Part shown: one piece after another, positions 18,185 through 60,220 of the stretch | How positions within the stretch are numbered: position 1 is the first letter of the stretch | Layout: the number at the start of each line of letters is the position of its first letter | The notes under the pieces: model-generated | Database searches by the model: none | Seen by the model: only the letters and a program-made list of their open reading frames with translations | What the model was told of the DNA's origin: nothing | Translations under genes and position numbers: made by a program | Origin: Alphaproteobacteria bacterium | Lineage (GTDB): Bacteria > Pseudomonadota > Alphaproteobacteria > Rs-D84 | Assembly (NCBI GenBank): GCA_017511715.1 | Contig: JAFWJF010000002.1 | Location: 62,001 to 126,000, forward strand | Direction of reading: 5' to 3' | DNA length: 64,000 nt

Positions 18185-19297
18185 ATGGAATTTTCAGTGT
18201 TTCGTCAGGTTTTAATACGTGCGCTGGGGCATATGCAGTCTATTGTTGAAAAACGGGCGACGTTGCCTATATTGGTTAATGTTAAAATCGAAGTGGCAGA
18301 TGATTTAGTGTTATCTGCAACAAATGTCGATTTGGAATTGGTTGAACATGTTGCGGCTGATATTACTTTGGCTGGAAAAACAACTGTGCCGGTTCAGATG
18401 TTGTATGATATTGTTCGTAAACTTCCAGATGATGCAGAAATAAGTTTCAAGCAATCTGGTGACCAGTTGGTTGTGTCCAGTGGTCGTGCGGTATTCCATT
18501 TGCCTACATTGCCAGCAGAAAATTTCCCAGCAATGGCAGGGGGAAACTTAAGTACCAAATTCCAAATGACAACTGGTGATTTGGCGCATTTAATTAACCA
18601 GACAAAATTTGCAATTCCAACAGATGATGTGCGTTATCATTTGGGCGGTATATATTTCCATATATCAGAAGATACAGGTAAATTAACTGCTGTCGCAACA
18701 GATGCCCAGCGTATGGCACTGTGTGCGATTGATGCGCCAGCTGCGGCAAAGGATATGCCATCTGTTATTATCCCAAGACGTGTTATTGGTGAATTGTCAA
18801 AATTATTGGAAGATGCAAATGTTGACGATGTCTTGATTGAATTGTCGGATACCAAGGCGCGTTTTACAGTTGGGGCTGCGACATTAACCAGCAAATTGGT
18901 TGATGCACAATATCCTAATTATCGTGTTGTTATTCCAAAGGGTAATGACAAGATTGCAATTTTGGACAGAAAGCAATTTGTGAATGCGGTTGATTTGGTT
19001 TCTGTTGCAAGCGTTGACAAGACAAAGTCTGTTCAGTTGGCGTTTTCTATGAACAAATTGGTAATCAGTGCATCCAGCCCTGATGCGGGTGCTGCAACCC
19101 AGGAATTAGATGTGGAATATAATGGTGATGCAACGTTTACAATAAACTTTAATGTAAAGTTCTTGTTAGATGTTGCGGGTCAGGTCGAAGGCGAAAAATT
19201 CCAAATGGAAATGCAAGAACCGCTTTCCCCAACAATTATTAAATCTACGGAAAAAGATACTGATGCATTGTTCGTTTTAATGCCGATGCGCATGTAA
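18185..19297 (+). CDS. dnaN: DNA polymerase III sliding clamp (beta subunit)
   Basis: 370 residues, normal length: three clamp domains with typical segments VEKRATLPILVNVKIEV, GGIYFH...ATDAQRMAL and the C-terminal FVLMPMRM. The homodimeric ring tethers Pol III and other partners to DNA. Here it is separated from dnaA by about 10 kb and by parE, uvrC and cdaA. Its 3' flank carries the long hairpin element at 19296. Confidence 0.97.
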   Translation: MEFSVFRQVLIRALGHMQSIVEKRATLPILVNVKIEVADDLVLSATNVDLELVEHVAADITLAGKTTVPVQMLYDIVRKLPDDAEISFKQSGDQLVVSSGRAVFHLPTLPAENFPAMAGGNLSTKFQMTTGDLAHLINQTKFAIPTDDVRYHLGGIYFHISEDTGKLTAVATDAQRMALCAIDAPAAAKDMPSVIIPRRVIGELSKLLEDANVDDVLIELSDTKARFTVGAATLTSKLVDAQYPNYRVVIPKGNDKIAILDRKQFVNAVDLVSVASVDKTKSVQLAFSMNKLVISASSPDAGAATQELDVEYNGDATFTINFNVKFLLDVAGQVEGEKFQMEMQEPLSPTIIKSTEKDTDALFVLMPMRM

Positions 19298-19402
19298 AAA
19301 CAAATTATAACGGCACATCTGCTTGTCGTTATTGCGTTCATGTAGGTCTACTACACTTCACTTAATAACGACGGCGCATCTGCGCCGTTCTGATTTGTTT
19401 TT
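19296..19402. repeat. Long-hairpin element with conserved apex, copy 1 (after dnaN)
   Basis: Starts at the dnaN stop. Outer arms AAAAACAAAT (19296-19305) / ATTTGTTTTT (19393-19402); AACGGC / GCCGTT (19309-19314 / 19384-19389); inner arms GTCGTTATT / AATAACGAC (19325-19333 / 19364-19372). The 24-nt apex (19337-19360) holds its own hairpin TGTAG-GTCTA-CTACA. The apex is identical to that at 59279-59302 while the arms differ. The right half (ACGGCGC-ATCT-GCGCCGT, then TTTGTTTTTT) could also act as a terminator for dnaN. Confidence 0.75.
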
Positions 19403-36122: not shown

Positions 36123-36180
<58 letters not shown>

Positions 36181-36199
<19 letters not shown>

Positions 36200-36237
36200 A
36201 AATTTAAACCACCACTTTTTGTGGTGGTTTTAATTTT
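36181..36237 (+). repeat. Direct repeat, left copy: tRNA-Pro 3' end plus terminator
   Basis: The last 19 nt of the tRNA, the following AT stretch and the hairpin AAACCACCAC/GTGGTGGTTT. The first 33 nt (36181-36213) are identical to 36361-36393, exactly 180 nt later; similarity continues through the hairpin. Arrangement like attL/attR at a tRNA gene. Confidence 0.85.
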
Positions 36238-36238
36238 G
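36201..36238 (+). terminator. Intrinsic terminator after tRNA-Pro(CGG)
   Basis: AAAATTTAAACCACCAC pairs with GTGGTGGTTTTAATTTT across a T5 loop, leaving TTTTAATTTT at the 3' side. Confidence 0.8.
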
Positions 36239-36360
36239 CCAGGCGCAACATTATGATAAGATACATCGCAACGCAGTTGCAGGTTCGACAATGAGTAGAT
36301 TTCGCAAACAAAGTGCAGTGAAATCGTTACGAATGCGTCGAAGGCAAGAAATGCCGAGAC

Positions 36361-36416
36361 AATCTTGTTGCCCCGACCAAAATTTAAACCACCGCTTTTG
36401 TGGTGGTTTTAATTTT
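36361..36416 (+). repeat. Direct repeat, right copy: duplicated tRNA tail plus shared terminator
   Basis: Second copy of the tRNA 3' end and its hairpin (one-base loop change, A to G at 36394). It is not a tRNA itself. Upstream, GTTGCAGGTTCGA (36276-36288) resembles the tRNA T arm as well. The hairpin runs into the CCA end of the convergent tRNA-Pro(GGG), giving a longer inverted repeat CCGACCAAAATT..AATTTTGGTCGG. Confidence 0.8.
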
Positions 36417-36492
36417 GGTCGGAGTGGCGGGGTTCGAACCCGCGACCTTTTGCCCCCCAGACAAACGCGCTACCAGGCTGCGCTACACCCCG
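36416..36492 (-). tRNA. tRNA-Pro (anticodon GGG)
   Basis: Minus strand. Acceptor CGGGGTG / CACTCCG with one G-T pair, anticodon stem TTTGT/GCAAA with loop CTGGGGG (anticodon GGG, codons CCC/CCT), T arm CGGGTTCGAACCC, encoded CCA. Convergent with tRNA-Pro(CGG). Confidence 0.93.
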
Positions 36493-55422: not shown

Positions 55423-55449
55423 ATGCAAAAGAAAGGAAATCTGCGGTTT

Positions 55450-58107
55450 ATGAAAAAAATATTGCTCTGTTTTATGATGCTTTTTCCATTTGTCATCACA
55501 GATGCGCACAGTAGCTCTTGCCCTGCCGGGTATTATTGGGACAACAATGGGTGTACACTTTGCCCAAATTTTGTAGATAGTAATTTCTTTGATGATAATT
55601 TATATGAATTTCACAAAGCTGAAGATAGCGATGATATAGAAAGTTGTGCACTTAAACTGAAACTTGGTGGGGAAAATGGCAGTAAATGTGGTGCGGATAC
55701 CGAAGTCATTTATAGCTATAATAAGACTCAACAAAAATATATTTTAGCAAAGGCAGACGTGAAGCCTAATTGCACTCTGAATTATGAAACAGATAAATGT
55801 TTTTTGCGCCGGCTTGAAGATGACCAAGTTTTTGGCAATAGAGATTTTTGCGGCGAATGCGCCGTTTGGGATGGGGCTTATTATGAAGACGCAGAACACA
55901 GATGTCGGGCCTGTCCAAATTTGAATGGGAATATAGGATTAGATGGTGATGATTATGATGTGGACAACAAATTGTACAATTTTATTCCACTTTCACGAAG
56001 AGATACTCTTGATGATTTTGTTAATGTTACGGGGATGCCGGATGATATAGAGGCATATAATTATAATGCCGTCACATTCGGACAAACTGGTGCTGCGGAC
56101 GAAGAAAACTCAGAACTTGCCAAATATCCAGTCAGTTGTGAAGTAGAATTTAATTATTATGCAATTTCAAGTTCGTGCCCCAATGAACGTGATTACGCTA
56201 ATGATGGATCTGGTGGATTTACGAGCGTTTGGTATGTTTATGATTTTAATCAAGGAAAGTATGTGCTTGCCCCTAATTATAATCCGTATATATATTTACC
56301 AAATAATAGTTGTAATGATAGTGCCCAAAGTTGTCTTTTAGCAAAGCCTCTTCCAGAAGAATTGAATGAAGATAATGTCAATGAAGATCTTTGCGCGGAA
56401 TGTGATTTCAAGGGAAATTACAAGGCGTACCATTGTCCGTTTGGACTGAGGTGTTCTGATATAAATGGTCGGTATCAATATTGTGCGGCATGTCCAATGA
56501 CTTTTAACACTAATTTATATGAATTCGTCTATGGGGATGATAACAGAACCTGTACGATTAAACTGAAAGTTGGTGGCGAAAACGGCAGTAAATGTGGCGC
56601 GGGGACAAATGTTGTTTATACTTACGATTTTTCTGTAAGAAAATATGTGCGGGATGCAAATGTTCAGGTAAATGTGGATGCCGGTTATTATGGTGATGAA
56701 AACAGTGGCCCTTATGCTGATTATTGTAAGGCGTGTCCAGAACCGTCAGGTGGTTTTAATTCTGATTTATATGAATTTTATCATTATGGTGATACCGATG
56801 GTATAGAAAGTTGTGCACTTAAACTGAAAGTTGGTGGTGCAAAAGGCAGTAAATGCGGCGCAGGAACAAATGTTGTTTATCGTTATAGTGGTAGGAAAGG
56901 ATATGAGTTAGCAGATGAAACAAGTGTACAAACTGTTTGTCAGCCACAGTCAAGAACTGATACATGTTTCTTGCGTAAACCAGATGATACTGTTGATTTT
57001 CAGAATGATTTTTGCACTGAATGCGACGTGGGGGCGGGAACACATTATGCAGATGATGATAAAAGATGCATGAAGTGTCCGGACCTGAGTACAAAGCATA
57101 CTGAAGGCGATATTTTTTATGAATTTTTAACATACCCTTCTAACACGTCAAAGGGTAGTGGGTGTATCGCGAAATTAGATGTTAACAAAAGTAAGTGCAA
57201 CAATGAATCAAATGTTCAATATGTTTATAATTTTGGAACAAAAGAGTATGAACTTAGTGGGACAGCGCGAACAGTGATTGCAAACCAGTGTACGGGGGCA
57301 GATAATTGTTTTCTTCCTGTTACGTCGATCCCAACCGTTTTAGATATTCGTGAAGATTTGTGTGTGGCCTGTGGAATAGGCCAAGGGGCGTATATAGGAA
57401 ACGACCAATGTAAATCATGTCCAGATTTTAATTGGCAATGTGACGGCAATAATTGTGGTAATTTATATGTTTATACATTAATTGACGGTATTTTTTCCGA
57501 GCTGGATAGTTGCGCACTCAAATTAAATGTTGGTGAAGGCGGTGGCAGTAAATGTGGCGCGGATACAAATGTGTTTTATAAATATGACACTACTCAAGGC
57601 AAATACATAAGGCAAACCCAGTATAAGGTAACCAAAGGTAGTACTGATGTTTTGAGCCTGGACCAGCAACCAAAAAATTTCGAATTGAAAGATTATTGCA
57701 AGGCAAATTGTAGTGGAGGGTATTATATGAATGGCAATGTTTGTGAGCAATGTCCGGCCGGTTATAAGTGTCCGGCGTACACAAATGATATTTCTGCGTG
57801 CGAGTCAGACACCTCTTCAAACTGTATGAAAGCGTGCCCTGTAAATTCCTATTCAGAGAAAGGGGCACTTGAATGTAAACAGTGTCCTGAAAGGTCGGGT
57901 GCAACAACAGTAGGTAGTAAATATTGCGATGTGGATGGTACAGCGTGTCGGGACTGGCGGGCTTGTTCGGCAACAAGGATGCCGGTATTGTGTCTGAATA
58001 GTGATTGTGACGACAACAACATTATTGATTTTGGTGATGAAACATATAAAGATATTATTGAAATATTATCAATCAACAAATCGGTTTATCAGAAAAAAAA
58101 ACAGTGA
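55450..58107 (+). CDS. Large secreted cysteine-rich repeat protein inserted in the alpha operon
   Basis: 885 residues from the ATG at 55450 with AAAGGAAA before it. Signal peptide MKKILLCFMMLFPFVITDAH. About six repeats of ~90-140 residues follow, with the core LYEF...ESCALKLKVGG, then GSKCGAGTNVVYTY and an aromatic-rich end; clear copies start near residues 53, 358, 440 and 682, with diverged ones between. Interspersed are CPAGYY..GC..CP modules (first at 26-40, again near 760-780) resembling EGF/TNFR-like cysteine modules. No C-terminal membrane helix or sorting signal is visible. No function can be assigned; a surface or secreted adhesin-like protein is plausible. It separates rpsK from rpoA and has its own promoter. 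Confidence 0.8.
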   Translation: MKKILLCFMMLFPFVITDAHSSSCPAGYYWDNNGCTLCPNFVDSNFFDDNLYEFHKAEDSDDIESCALKLKLGGENGSKCGADTEVIYSYNKTQQKYILAKADVKPNCTLNYETDKCFLRRLEDDQVFGNRDFCGECAVWDGAYYEDAEHRCRACPNLNGNIGLDGDDYDVDNKLYNFIPLSRRDTLDDFVNVTGMPDDIEAYNYNAVTFGQTGAADEENSELAKYPVSCEVEFNYYAISSSCPNERDYANDGSGGFTSVWYVYDFNQGKYVLAPNYNPYIYLPNNSCNDSAQSCLLAKPLPEELNEDNVNEDLCAECDFKGNYKAYHCPFGLRCSDINGRYQYCAACPMTFNTNLYEFVYGDDNRTCTIKLKVGGENGSKCGAGTNVVYTYDFSVRKYVRDANVQVNVDAGYYGDENSGPYADYCKACPEPSGGFNSDLYEFYHYGDTDGIESCALKLKVGGAKGSKCGAGTNVVYRYSGRKGYELADETSVQTVCQPQSRTDTCFLRKPDDTVDFQNDFCTECDVGAGTHYADDDKRCMKCPDLSTKHTEGDIFYEFLTYPSNTSKGSGCIAKLDVNKSKCNNESNVQYVYNFGTKEYELSGTARTVIANQCTGADNCFLPVTSIPTVLDIREDLCVACGIGQGAYIGNDQCKSCPDFNWQCDGNNCGNLYVYTLIDGIFSELDSCALKLNVGEGGGSKCGADTNVFYKYDTTQGKYIRQTQYKVTKGSTDVLSLDQQPKNFELKDYCKANCSGGYYMNGNVCEQCPAGYKCPAYTNDISACESDTSSNCMKACPVNSYSEKGALECKQCPERSGATTVGSKYCDVDGTACRDWRACSATRMPVLCLNSDCDDNNIIDFGDETYKDIIEILSINKSVYQKKKQ

Positions 58108-58213: not shown

Positions 58214-59242
58214 ATGATTGAAAAAAACTGGATGACTTTGATTAAGCCAAAAAAATTGAATATCAAAGTCGATGAAAAAAATCCGAATATTGCAACTTTA
58301 ATCGCAGAACCTTTGGAAAAGGGTTTTGGTTTGACGCTTGGGACTGCGTTGCGTCGCGTTTTGTTGTCGTCCTTGCAAGGGTGCGCACCAATTTATGTTA
58401 AAATTGATGGTGTCCAACACGAATTCAGCAGCATCAGCGGTGTTCGCGAAGATGTCACAGATATCCTTTTGAATTTGAAAGGTGTTTATTTCAAAGCGTT
58501 AACCGAAGGTCAACACAAAGCAACAATTAAAGTCAAAGGACCAGCAGTTGTCACGGCGGGCATGATTGAAACAAGTGCTAATGTCGAAGTGATGAACAAA
58601 GATGCAGAAATTTGCACACTTGATAATGGTGCGTCCTTGGATATGGAAATAACATTGGCATCAGGTCGTGGTTATGTTCCGGCATCTGTTAATGCAACAA
58701 ATTTGCCATTGGGAACAATACCAGTAGATTCTATTTATTCACCAATTTTGAATGTGGCATCTAATGTTTCACAAACCCGTGTTGGTCAATCTACTGATTA
58801 CGATAAATTGGAATTGACAGTAAAAACAAACGGTTCTGTTACCCCAGAAGATGCTATTGCATTTGCCGCGCGTATTTTGACAGACCAATTGAATGTATTT
58901 ATCAATTTCGAAGATCCAACAGCAACAAATGCTTTGAATGACGAAGAAAATGCAAAAGATGTTTTGCCATTTGATTCTAAGTTGTTAAAGCATGTTGATG
59001 AACTGGAATTGTCTGTTCGTGCAACAAATTGCTTGAAAAATGACAAGATTAACTGGTTGGGTGAATTGGTGCAAAAGACTGAAAACGACATGTTAAAGAC
59101 ACCAAACTTTGGTCGTAAGTCTTTGAATGAAATCAAGGCTCAATTGGAAGCAATGGGATTGTCTTTGGGTATGGAAGTGCCAGGTTGGCCGCCAGAAAAT
59201 GTGGCAGAATTGGCAAAGAAATACGAAGACCCCTATAAATAA
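58214..59242 (+). CDS. rpoA: RNA polymerase alpha subunit
   Basis: 342 residues. N-terminal dimerisation domain ([20 protein letters not shown]), C-terminal alpha-CTD ([31 protein letters not shown]). Full length; the only interruption of its usual context is the gene upstream. Its stop is the first base pair group of the second long-hairpin element. Confidence 0.99.
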
Positions 59243-59342
59243 ATTAAATTCTGTGGGCGCTTGTTGTGGTTGCCATTTTTCATGTAGGTCTACTACACTT
59301 CAAAATGTCAACCACTTCCAATCGTCTCGCATAATTTAATTT
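59241..59342. repeat. Long-hairpin element with conserved apex, copy 2 (after rpoA)
   Basis: Outer arms AAATTAAATT (59241-59250) / AATTTAATTT (59333-59342), inner arms GTGGTTGCCATTT (59266-59278) / AAATGTCAACCAC (59303-59315) with one mismatch, and the 24-nt apex at 59279-59302 identical to 19337-59360's counterpart at 19337-19360. Arms share no sequence with copy 1. No T-run follows, so termination is doubtful here. Confidence 0.75.
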
Positions 59343-59425
59343 CTCGCTTGGCTAGGAGTTGAGTGGAAGATTCTAACAATTTTCTAACCTTGCTAGGGAT
59401 TAGGAAAAAGCAAAAGGTTTATGAA

Positions 59426-59560
59426 ATGGCAAAGGAAATAAAAAAAGCAACAAAACCAAAAGAAAAAGCGTTTATTAACGCGACCGAAGGTCTAAAGGGC
59501 TTTTTTGCACAATTATTACGTGGTGTATTTGCTATTCCAGAACCTAAAAATCAAAGATAA
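59426..59560 (+). CDS. Possible small basic protein between rpoA and rplQ
   Basis: 44 residues (MAKEIKKATKPKEKAFINAT and a hydrophobic-basic tail GFFAQLLRGVFAIPEPKNQR). AAAAGG lies 8 nt before the ATG; a GTG at 59363 would make it 65 residues, also with a nearby AGGAG. No family recognised and the frame is short, so it may not be real. It could be a membrane-touching amphipathic peptide. Confidence 0.4.
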   Translation: MAKEIKKATKPKEKAFINATEGLKGFFAQLLRGVFAIPEPKNQR

Positions 59561-59653
59561 AATCCCCACAATTCTGGTGGTGTTGTACCATCTGGTTGTG
59601 GTGTCTCAAAAATCCCCAGATAAAAAAAGGGGCAGAAACAAAAGGAGTAATCA

Positions 59654-60220
59654 ATGAGACATATGAAAGCTGGTCGTACTTTCAATCGCGACACAAATGC
59701 CAGAAAAGCCTTGTTTATTGGTTTGGCGAAAAACTTGATTGAAAAAGAACAAATTAAAACAACCTTGCCAAAGGCAAAAGATTTGCGCCGTGTGGTCGAA
59801 AAATTGATTACCCGCGCGAAAGCTGATACAGTTGCGAACCGTCGTTTGACTGCATCTGAATTAGGAAACGGTTCTGACAAAGCAGTTAAAAAATTGTTTT
59901 CTGTGTTGGGACCACGTTATGCAAAACGTCCAGGGGGATATACGCGCGTTCTGAAAGCGGGTTTCCGTTATGGTGATGCGGCACCTATGGCAATTATAGA
60001 ATTGGTTGATCGTGATGAAAATGCCAAGAAAGTTGCGCCAAAAACTGTTGCAGCAGAAAAAGCAGAACCTGTTGAAAAGGAAGCCGTTGCGGAAAAAACA
60101 CCAAAGGCTGTTAAAGAAGCCAAAGCAACCAAGGTTGCAGCGGAAAAGAAAGCCGCCACGCCAAAAGCAACTGGTGCTAAAAAGACGGTCGCTGTTAAAC
60201 GTCGTGCAACAGGTAAATAA
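59654..60220 (+). CDS. rplQ: 50S ribosomal protein L17 with C-terminal extension
   Basis: 188 residues, against ~120-140 usually. The first ~118 are standard L17 ([55 protein letters not shown]). The last ~65 are a low-complexity Ala/Lys/Glu tail ([20 protein letters not shown] and more). Ribosome-binding site AAAAGGAG. The gap before it (59561-59653) holds weak inverted repeats (CCACAA/TTGTGG). Confidence 0.96.

Follow-up and report, generated by a model that had tools for sequence, protein, structure and literature searches.

Two long hairpins in the stretch of DNA analysed here (64 kb, hereafter the window) are members of a family that had not been annotated before, whose elements lie directly behind gene ends in many Proteobacteria. 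Their structure and their standing as a family are secure, while the comparison of copies makes mobility likely; a putative role at transcript 3' ends is supported as well, mainly by the way in which the element replaces other hairpins in the same slot.

The two copies and their fold

The 24-mer TTCATGTAGGTCTACTACACTTCA forms the apex of both hairpins (Table 1) and has no third occurrence in the window, where simple counting gives a chance expectation of about 1e-5 for one 24-mer found twice in 64 kb. Predicted RNA folds are strong, at -44.7 kcal/mol for the copy behind dnaN and -36.5 kcal/mol for the copy behind rpoA, and in neither case was any of 200 shuffled sequences as good. An earlier sequence-only reading had proposed two copies with identical 24-nt apices and with arms unlike in sequence; the coordinates, the exact match, the folds and the dissimilarity of the arms all bear this out. 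It had also noted TGTAG-GTCTA-CTACA within the apex, a stem that is indeed present but is not part of one perfect hairpin: the UGUAG/CUACA pairing stands above a conserved asymmetric internal loop in which UCA lies opposite CUUC, and more conserved loops occur lower in the stem. Because the dnaN open reading frame ends at 19297 and that of rpoA at 59242, both hairpins begin within stop codons. The second copy lies inside a classical operon, since the next classical gene 3' of rpoA is rplQ, which we take the following open reading frame to be, judging from its start sequence (13 residues).

Table 1. Hairpin elements and associated genes in the window.
Feature	Position	Strand	Evidence
Element copy 1 (dnaN type), long imperfect hairpin, 5' end within dnaN stop codon	19296..19402	+	Fold z -10.0; R2 covariance model 87.2 bits, E 3.5e-16 (rough)
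Copy 1 apex: UCA/CUUC internal loop and UGUAG-GUCUA-CUACA stem-loop	19337..19360	+	Identical 24-mer; apex plan common to order-wide copies
Element copy 2 (rpoA type), long imperfect hairpin, 5' end within rpoA stop codon, rpoA-rplQ spacer	59241..59342	+	Fold z -8.15; R1 126 bits, R2 71.1 bits; covariation over 20 species
Copy 2 apex, same sequence as copy 1 apex	59279..59302	+	Identical 24-mer
dnaN, host gene of copy 1	18185..19297	+	Pfam DNA_pol3_beta domains
rpoA, host gene of copy 2	58214..59242	+	Pfam RNA_pol_A domains
rplQ (presumed), next classical operon gene; copy 2 lies between rpoA and rplQ	59654..60220	+	ORF and translation

Throughout the family, each copy is a single long stem of about 100-118 nt whose arm sequence is nearly free provided that the arms pair, topped by an apex of the plan YUCA-UGUAN-loop-N'UACA-CUNC. 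At the rpoA site of 20 species, 98.3% of alignment cells are paired and double changes occur in 20 of 39 pairs, with a covariation score of 0.345 against 0.134 for shuffled and at most 0.064 for slid alignments. Among 55 dissimilar copies, double changes reach 37 of 41 pairs and the score is 0.537 against 0.162; as this set was gathered with an apex pattern, the apex stem seems invariant there in its four lower pairs. A copy found otherwise (C5:97747) does carry a compensated change in this stem, UGCAG/CUGCA, and the closing pair of the apex varies between G-C, U-A and C-G. Nearly all copies retain the unpaired UCA/CUNC and the lower AUCU-like loops, and those of the rpoA type also a Y.Y mismatch, an argument for recognition of the folded form and against mere copy-correction of a palindrome as the source of the pairing. 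The earlier suggestion that selection acts on the structure together with the loop sequence is thus strongly supported, by covariation at one orthologous site and family-wide and by loops that stay unpaired.

These unpaired places also weigh against the reading of the compensatory changes as a by-product of replication, in which template switching at a quasi-palindrome rewrites one arm from the other and so keeps old duplicated hairpins paired. Very long, near-perfect stems of near-random sequence would be expected from such a process, as would a placement oriented with replication and, in the broad set of inner stems, G-U mismatches about as numerous as A-C ones (22 vs 16, as against 16 vs 3 in the rpoA orthologs). 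Correction of this kind would, however, erase the fixed UCA/CUNC, lower AUCU and rpoA-type Y.Y sites, and it leaves the placement at gene ends unexplained; we therefore regard it as very improbable.

Distribution and placement at gene ends

The source genome (845,597 bases, with the window at C7:62001-126000), whose near relatives in named collections are alphaproteobacterial MAGs from the rumen, holds five copies, located behind dnaN, rpoA, a T2SS-F gene, yebC and tRNA-Thr(GGT). A search with the exact 24-nt apex, as the sequence-only reading had advised, recovers the two copies of the window but misses the other three, which are less similar (C5:97747, C5:142746 and C5:105941). A covariance model (R1) built from the first 20 copies found matches in 49 of the 59 genus members, with a maximum of 22 per genome. 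The arm-free pattern ATGTA-N6-9-TACACTNC occurs in 46 of 59 genomes of the genus and in 127 of 201 of the order, representing 16 of 23 genera, with up to 35 matches per genome against 0-3 per strand for reversed-pattern controls. Copy number differs from 0 to 35 even among sister species, and many sister genomes are without the element.

There are clear relatives in other Alphaproteobacteria. At class level, a second covariance model (R2) matched 16 of 289 genomes at E<=0.001, a threshold to be read as rough given that the E-values come from a shortened calibration, and among the matched genomes are some from other families, which hold 13, 6, 6 and 4 copies. These copies also adjoin stop codons or, at one locus (L306), tRNA-Val. 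Phylum-wide matches to R2 are few and weaker. A stricter apex, TCATGTA-N6-9-TACACTNCGC, is present in 17 of 398 genomes of the phylum, with up to 16 copies and one control hit, and most of these loci fold with the UCA/CUNC loop and paired arms. Because the E-values are rough, the extension of the family to Gammaproteobacteria is probable, not proven. Viral contigs contain 63 exact 15-mer matches, whose arms are unpaired and whose count fits chance, and plasmids and phages searched with a gammaproteobacterial copy or consensus gave no match.

Of 157 hairpin copies in the sampled DNA, 107 lie directly behind a stop codon on the same strand and 33 more are second or later units of arrays; the hairpin filter that defines these copies is loose (it passes 17 of 70 control-pattern matches), and the position effect is independent of it. 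The apex is mostly found 38-48 nt downstream of the stop codon, so that the stem begins 0 to a few nt past it. Several of the remaining copies adjoin the CCA of a tRNA gene, as in tRNA-Thr of the source genome and at three further loci (L189, L193 and L260), and in genome G005 the end of tRNA-Gly bears a copy that is followed by tRNA-Tyr. The element takes the orientation of the gene upstream. As copies also follow tRNA genes, the positional rule concerns the gene 3' end rather than the stop codon: the earlier observation that the hairpins start at the stop codon holds generally, yet is properly a statement about gene ends that includes those of tRNAs. The same copies demote a translation-specific role such as ribosome stalling at stop codons. 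Some copies are intra-operon (rpsM-rpsK, rpoA-rplQ, tRNA-Gly/tRNA-Tyr). The host genes, tRNA genes among them, share no common function, and one element-bearing gene of 542 amino acids encodes a secretin according to Pfam.

Within the order, copies are also nearly confined to the leading strand. With GC skew as its proxy, 106 of the 107 stop-adjacent copies lie on the strand of positive local skew, compared with 889 of 1334 genes (67%) on the sampled contigs; when gene families are collapsed, 33 of 34 obey the rule (binomial P 2e-5). Expression level could contribute to this bias. Among contigs for which several pattern matches are listed, none has both orientations; one of them (G092:C2), for instance, has 17 minus-strand copies across 207 kb. 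Two relatives (G293 and G305) likewise show a single orientation per contig. The gammaproteobacterial relatives do not follow this rule.

Taken with the host genes, the strand rule makes it improbable that the element is a dedicated, protein-bound regulatory RNA of the 3' UTR that marks a regulon in cis and owes its spread mainly to descent. Orthologous sites common to several species, the conserved loops and the excess of G-U over A-C in rpoA orthologs would all fit such an RNA. A regulon is weakened by the list of functionally unrelated hosts with its tRNA genes, and the absence of the element from many sister genomes, the near-identical copies possible within one genome and the strand rule itself count against descent as the main route.

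Probable mobility and the transcript-end slot

Near-identical copies stand behind unrelated genes in genomes G071 and G005, where arrays reach four or five units. In three loci (L003, L104 and L101), an intact copy of type A is separated from the rpoA stop codon by a copy of type C, so arrays can extend at their gene-proximal end. The rpsM-rpsK spacer is empty in the source genome and filled in G005 and G071. Filled and empty pairs of this kind are few, and their A/T-rich, mutually pairing ends mask the junction, where a target duplication of 3-26 bp, as in YPAL, would lie. G005 and G071 have many element-bearing genes in common, with arms that agree within each genome and differ between the two, a pattern to be expected if copies either entered these gene ends more than once or evolved in concert. 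The element had been described as something other than a simple duplicated repeat; its structure is indeed maintained, but it is also a dispersed, array-forming repeat with virtually identical copies in some genomes, and mobility and structure have to be combined.

Two further features were seen in these regions. A small conserved motif, CUUGC-N3-4-GCAAGGAG, follows many of the hairpins (window 59343-59360; arrays of G003, G005 and G071), its G071 form being GCACCUGAUGUGC-like, and the outer 5' arm is often missing from later array copies, as though it had been the entry point of another copy. As candidate mobilisers, we considered and rejected a Y1 transposase, whose domain (PF01797) is present in one of 59 genus genomes, G028, itself element-free, and a reverse transcriptase; neither tracks copy number.

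Strand preference, near-identical copies and arrays, and copy numbers of 0 to 35 between sister species are what one would expect of a purely selfish hairpin of single-stranded DNA, on which a candidate enzyme would act in the lagging-strand template, with no role for the RNA and with the gene-end placement left by selection among survivors. The lack of a clear G-U excess in the broad inner stems agrees with this as well. The stem, however, starts no more than a few nt from the gene end in nearly all copies, more tightly than survival alone predicts, rpoA copies with compensatory changes have been maintained in many species, and carriers have no Y1 transposase; on balance we think it unlikely that the element is selfish DNA and nothing else.

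Evidence for a part in transcript ends comes from the slot that the element occupies. Read by eye, all nine dnaN orthologs without the element have a GC hairpin and T-run directly behind the gene, and this canonical terminator is absent in both of the two orthologs with it. In element-less genomes, the hairpins behind rpoA are of other kinds and include canonical terminators. Across G005 and G071, a canonical terminator follows 4 of 24 element genes vs 151 of 369 ordinary operon ends. A simple rule for canonical terminators, which asks for a GC-rich hairpin with a T-run immediately after it, is passed by 2 of 24 elements; given this count and the existence of intra-operon copies, we only infer that the element takes over the role of the 3' hairpin. 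Two of the identities suggested for the element, an RNA element of the 3' UTR and a palindromic mobile sequence, are each partly right. In the window itself, intrinsic terminators near 1339, 3804, 22629 and 63056 have the core CCGCCCGATTGGGCGG in identical or almost identical form, as though copying around the source genome had extended to terminators.

The explanation that we favour, at a probability of roughly 0.6, is a MITE/REP/YPAL-like mobile hairpin repeat that is copied into the 3' ends of leading-strand genes and there replaces the transcript-end hairpin. Immediately behind the gene 3' end, new copies would enter the strand that lies exposed while it is the template for lagging-strand synthesis, with the folded apex serving as recognition site for a putative factor. 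The inserted hairpin would then stand in for the intrinsic terminator as the 3' hairpin of the transcript, in termination or in protection from 3' exonucleases, and this replacement would render it tolerable or useful to the host, so that many species retain copies, for example at rpoA. Against this mobile reading count the low number of terminator-like elements (2 of 24), the intra-operon copies, the failure to find a mobilising enzyme (Y1 or reverse transcriptase) and the gammaproteobacterial relatives without a strand rule. Precise placement behind gene ends is also not a usual habit of transposons.

A broader proposal, which we hold to be doubtful, is that the hairpins form a Proteobacteria-wide class of transcript ends distinct from intrinsic terminators, in which the folded apex UCA-UGUAN...N'UACA-CUNC would be read by a conserved putative factor that both copies the element into leading-strand 3' ends and lets it set the 3' ends of transcripts. 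The family brings together dispersed palindromes, the 3' ends of transcripts and the polarity of replication, topics that are usually kept separate. Should the strand and gene-end rules hold, it offers a natural experiment on how short hairpins can harmlessly invade compact genomes, and apex, distance and strand together make a testable signature for a so far unnamed mobilising or RNA-binding factor. It would also account for the way in which some genes in these genomes end without a recognisable terminator.

Comparison with known repeats and neighbouring features

No Rfam covariance model matches the element at its gathering score, and literature searches with strings of its sequence found no match. 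The earlier impression that it belongs to no described family thus holds for Rfam, but its positional behaviour resembles that of YPAL and of stop-proximal REP elements. The original 2006 description of YPAL, or RU-2, of Yersinia reportedly places these elements close behind stop codons, over terminator-like sequences, and the present element is also found close behind stop codons at terminator-like sites, a functional analogy and not membership. YPAL is a mobile palindromic repeat whose targets span or neighbour dyad symmetries, with a possible influence on the stability of the upstream transcript (PMC2229807). RU-2 differs in being 168 bp long and not A+T-rich, as compared with about 105 nt here, and its printed sequence has another fold and no UGUA-UACA apex on either strand.

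A fraction of REP elements lie 15 nt or less from stop codons, where they can reduce translation, and REP hairpins can protect mRNA (PMC12306157). They are, like our element, dispersed extragenic palindromes that are partly stop-proximal. REPs are nevertheless 20-40 bp long, more numerous, often alternating in orientation and associated with a RAYT gene of the Y1 type (PMC2817692), whereas the present element (and the same holds against BIMEs) measures about 105 nt, has 0-35 copies and one orientation per contig, and its carriers have no Y1 gene. R178 of Pseudomonas fluorescens, with 101 bp, an internal inverted repeat and 9-28 copies per genome (PMC2718517), is similar in length, inverted repeat and copy number, a likeness taken from its description only. 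Some large genomes among the gammaproteobacterial matches (e.g. G724) have the same apex, and R178 may be a described relative of the family.

Intrinsic terminators share with the element the slot behind dnaN, rpoA and other genes and the A-rich 5' and T-rich 3' flanks of the stem, but the hairpins reported here have a conserved apex and internal loops, combine a GC stem with an immediate T-run in only 2 of 24 cases and also occur within operons. Integron attC sites differ as well: on inspection, the base of the stem has no GTTRRRY/RYYYAAC boxes but variable A/T pairing, and conservation lies at the apex. In behaviour the family is closest to YPAL and the stop-proximal REPs, and its sequence, its length, the absence of a RAYT gene and its uniform orientation set it apart.

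Three neighbouring features of the window deserve mention. In the rpoA-rplQ gap, the stretch before rplQ (59560-59653, and L274-L294) looks conserved across species, with CUGAAA...UUUCAGG-like, GUCUCA and AUCCCC...GGGGCAGAA parts followed by AAAAGGAG, and may represent the leader RNA of a ribosomal-protein gene, one for which Rfam has no match. Between two convergent tRNA genes, at 36123-36492, a terminator-like unit of 56 nt is duplicated (84% identical). Upstream of rpoA, an open reading frame of 894 amino acids (55423-58107) contains internal DNA repeats of 104-133 nt that are 60-77% alike.
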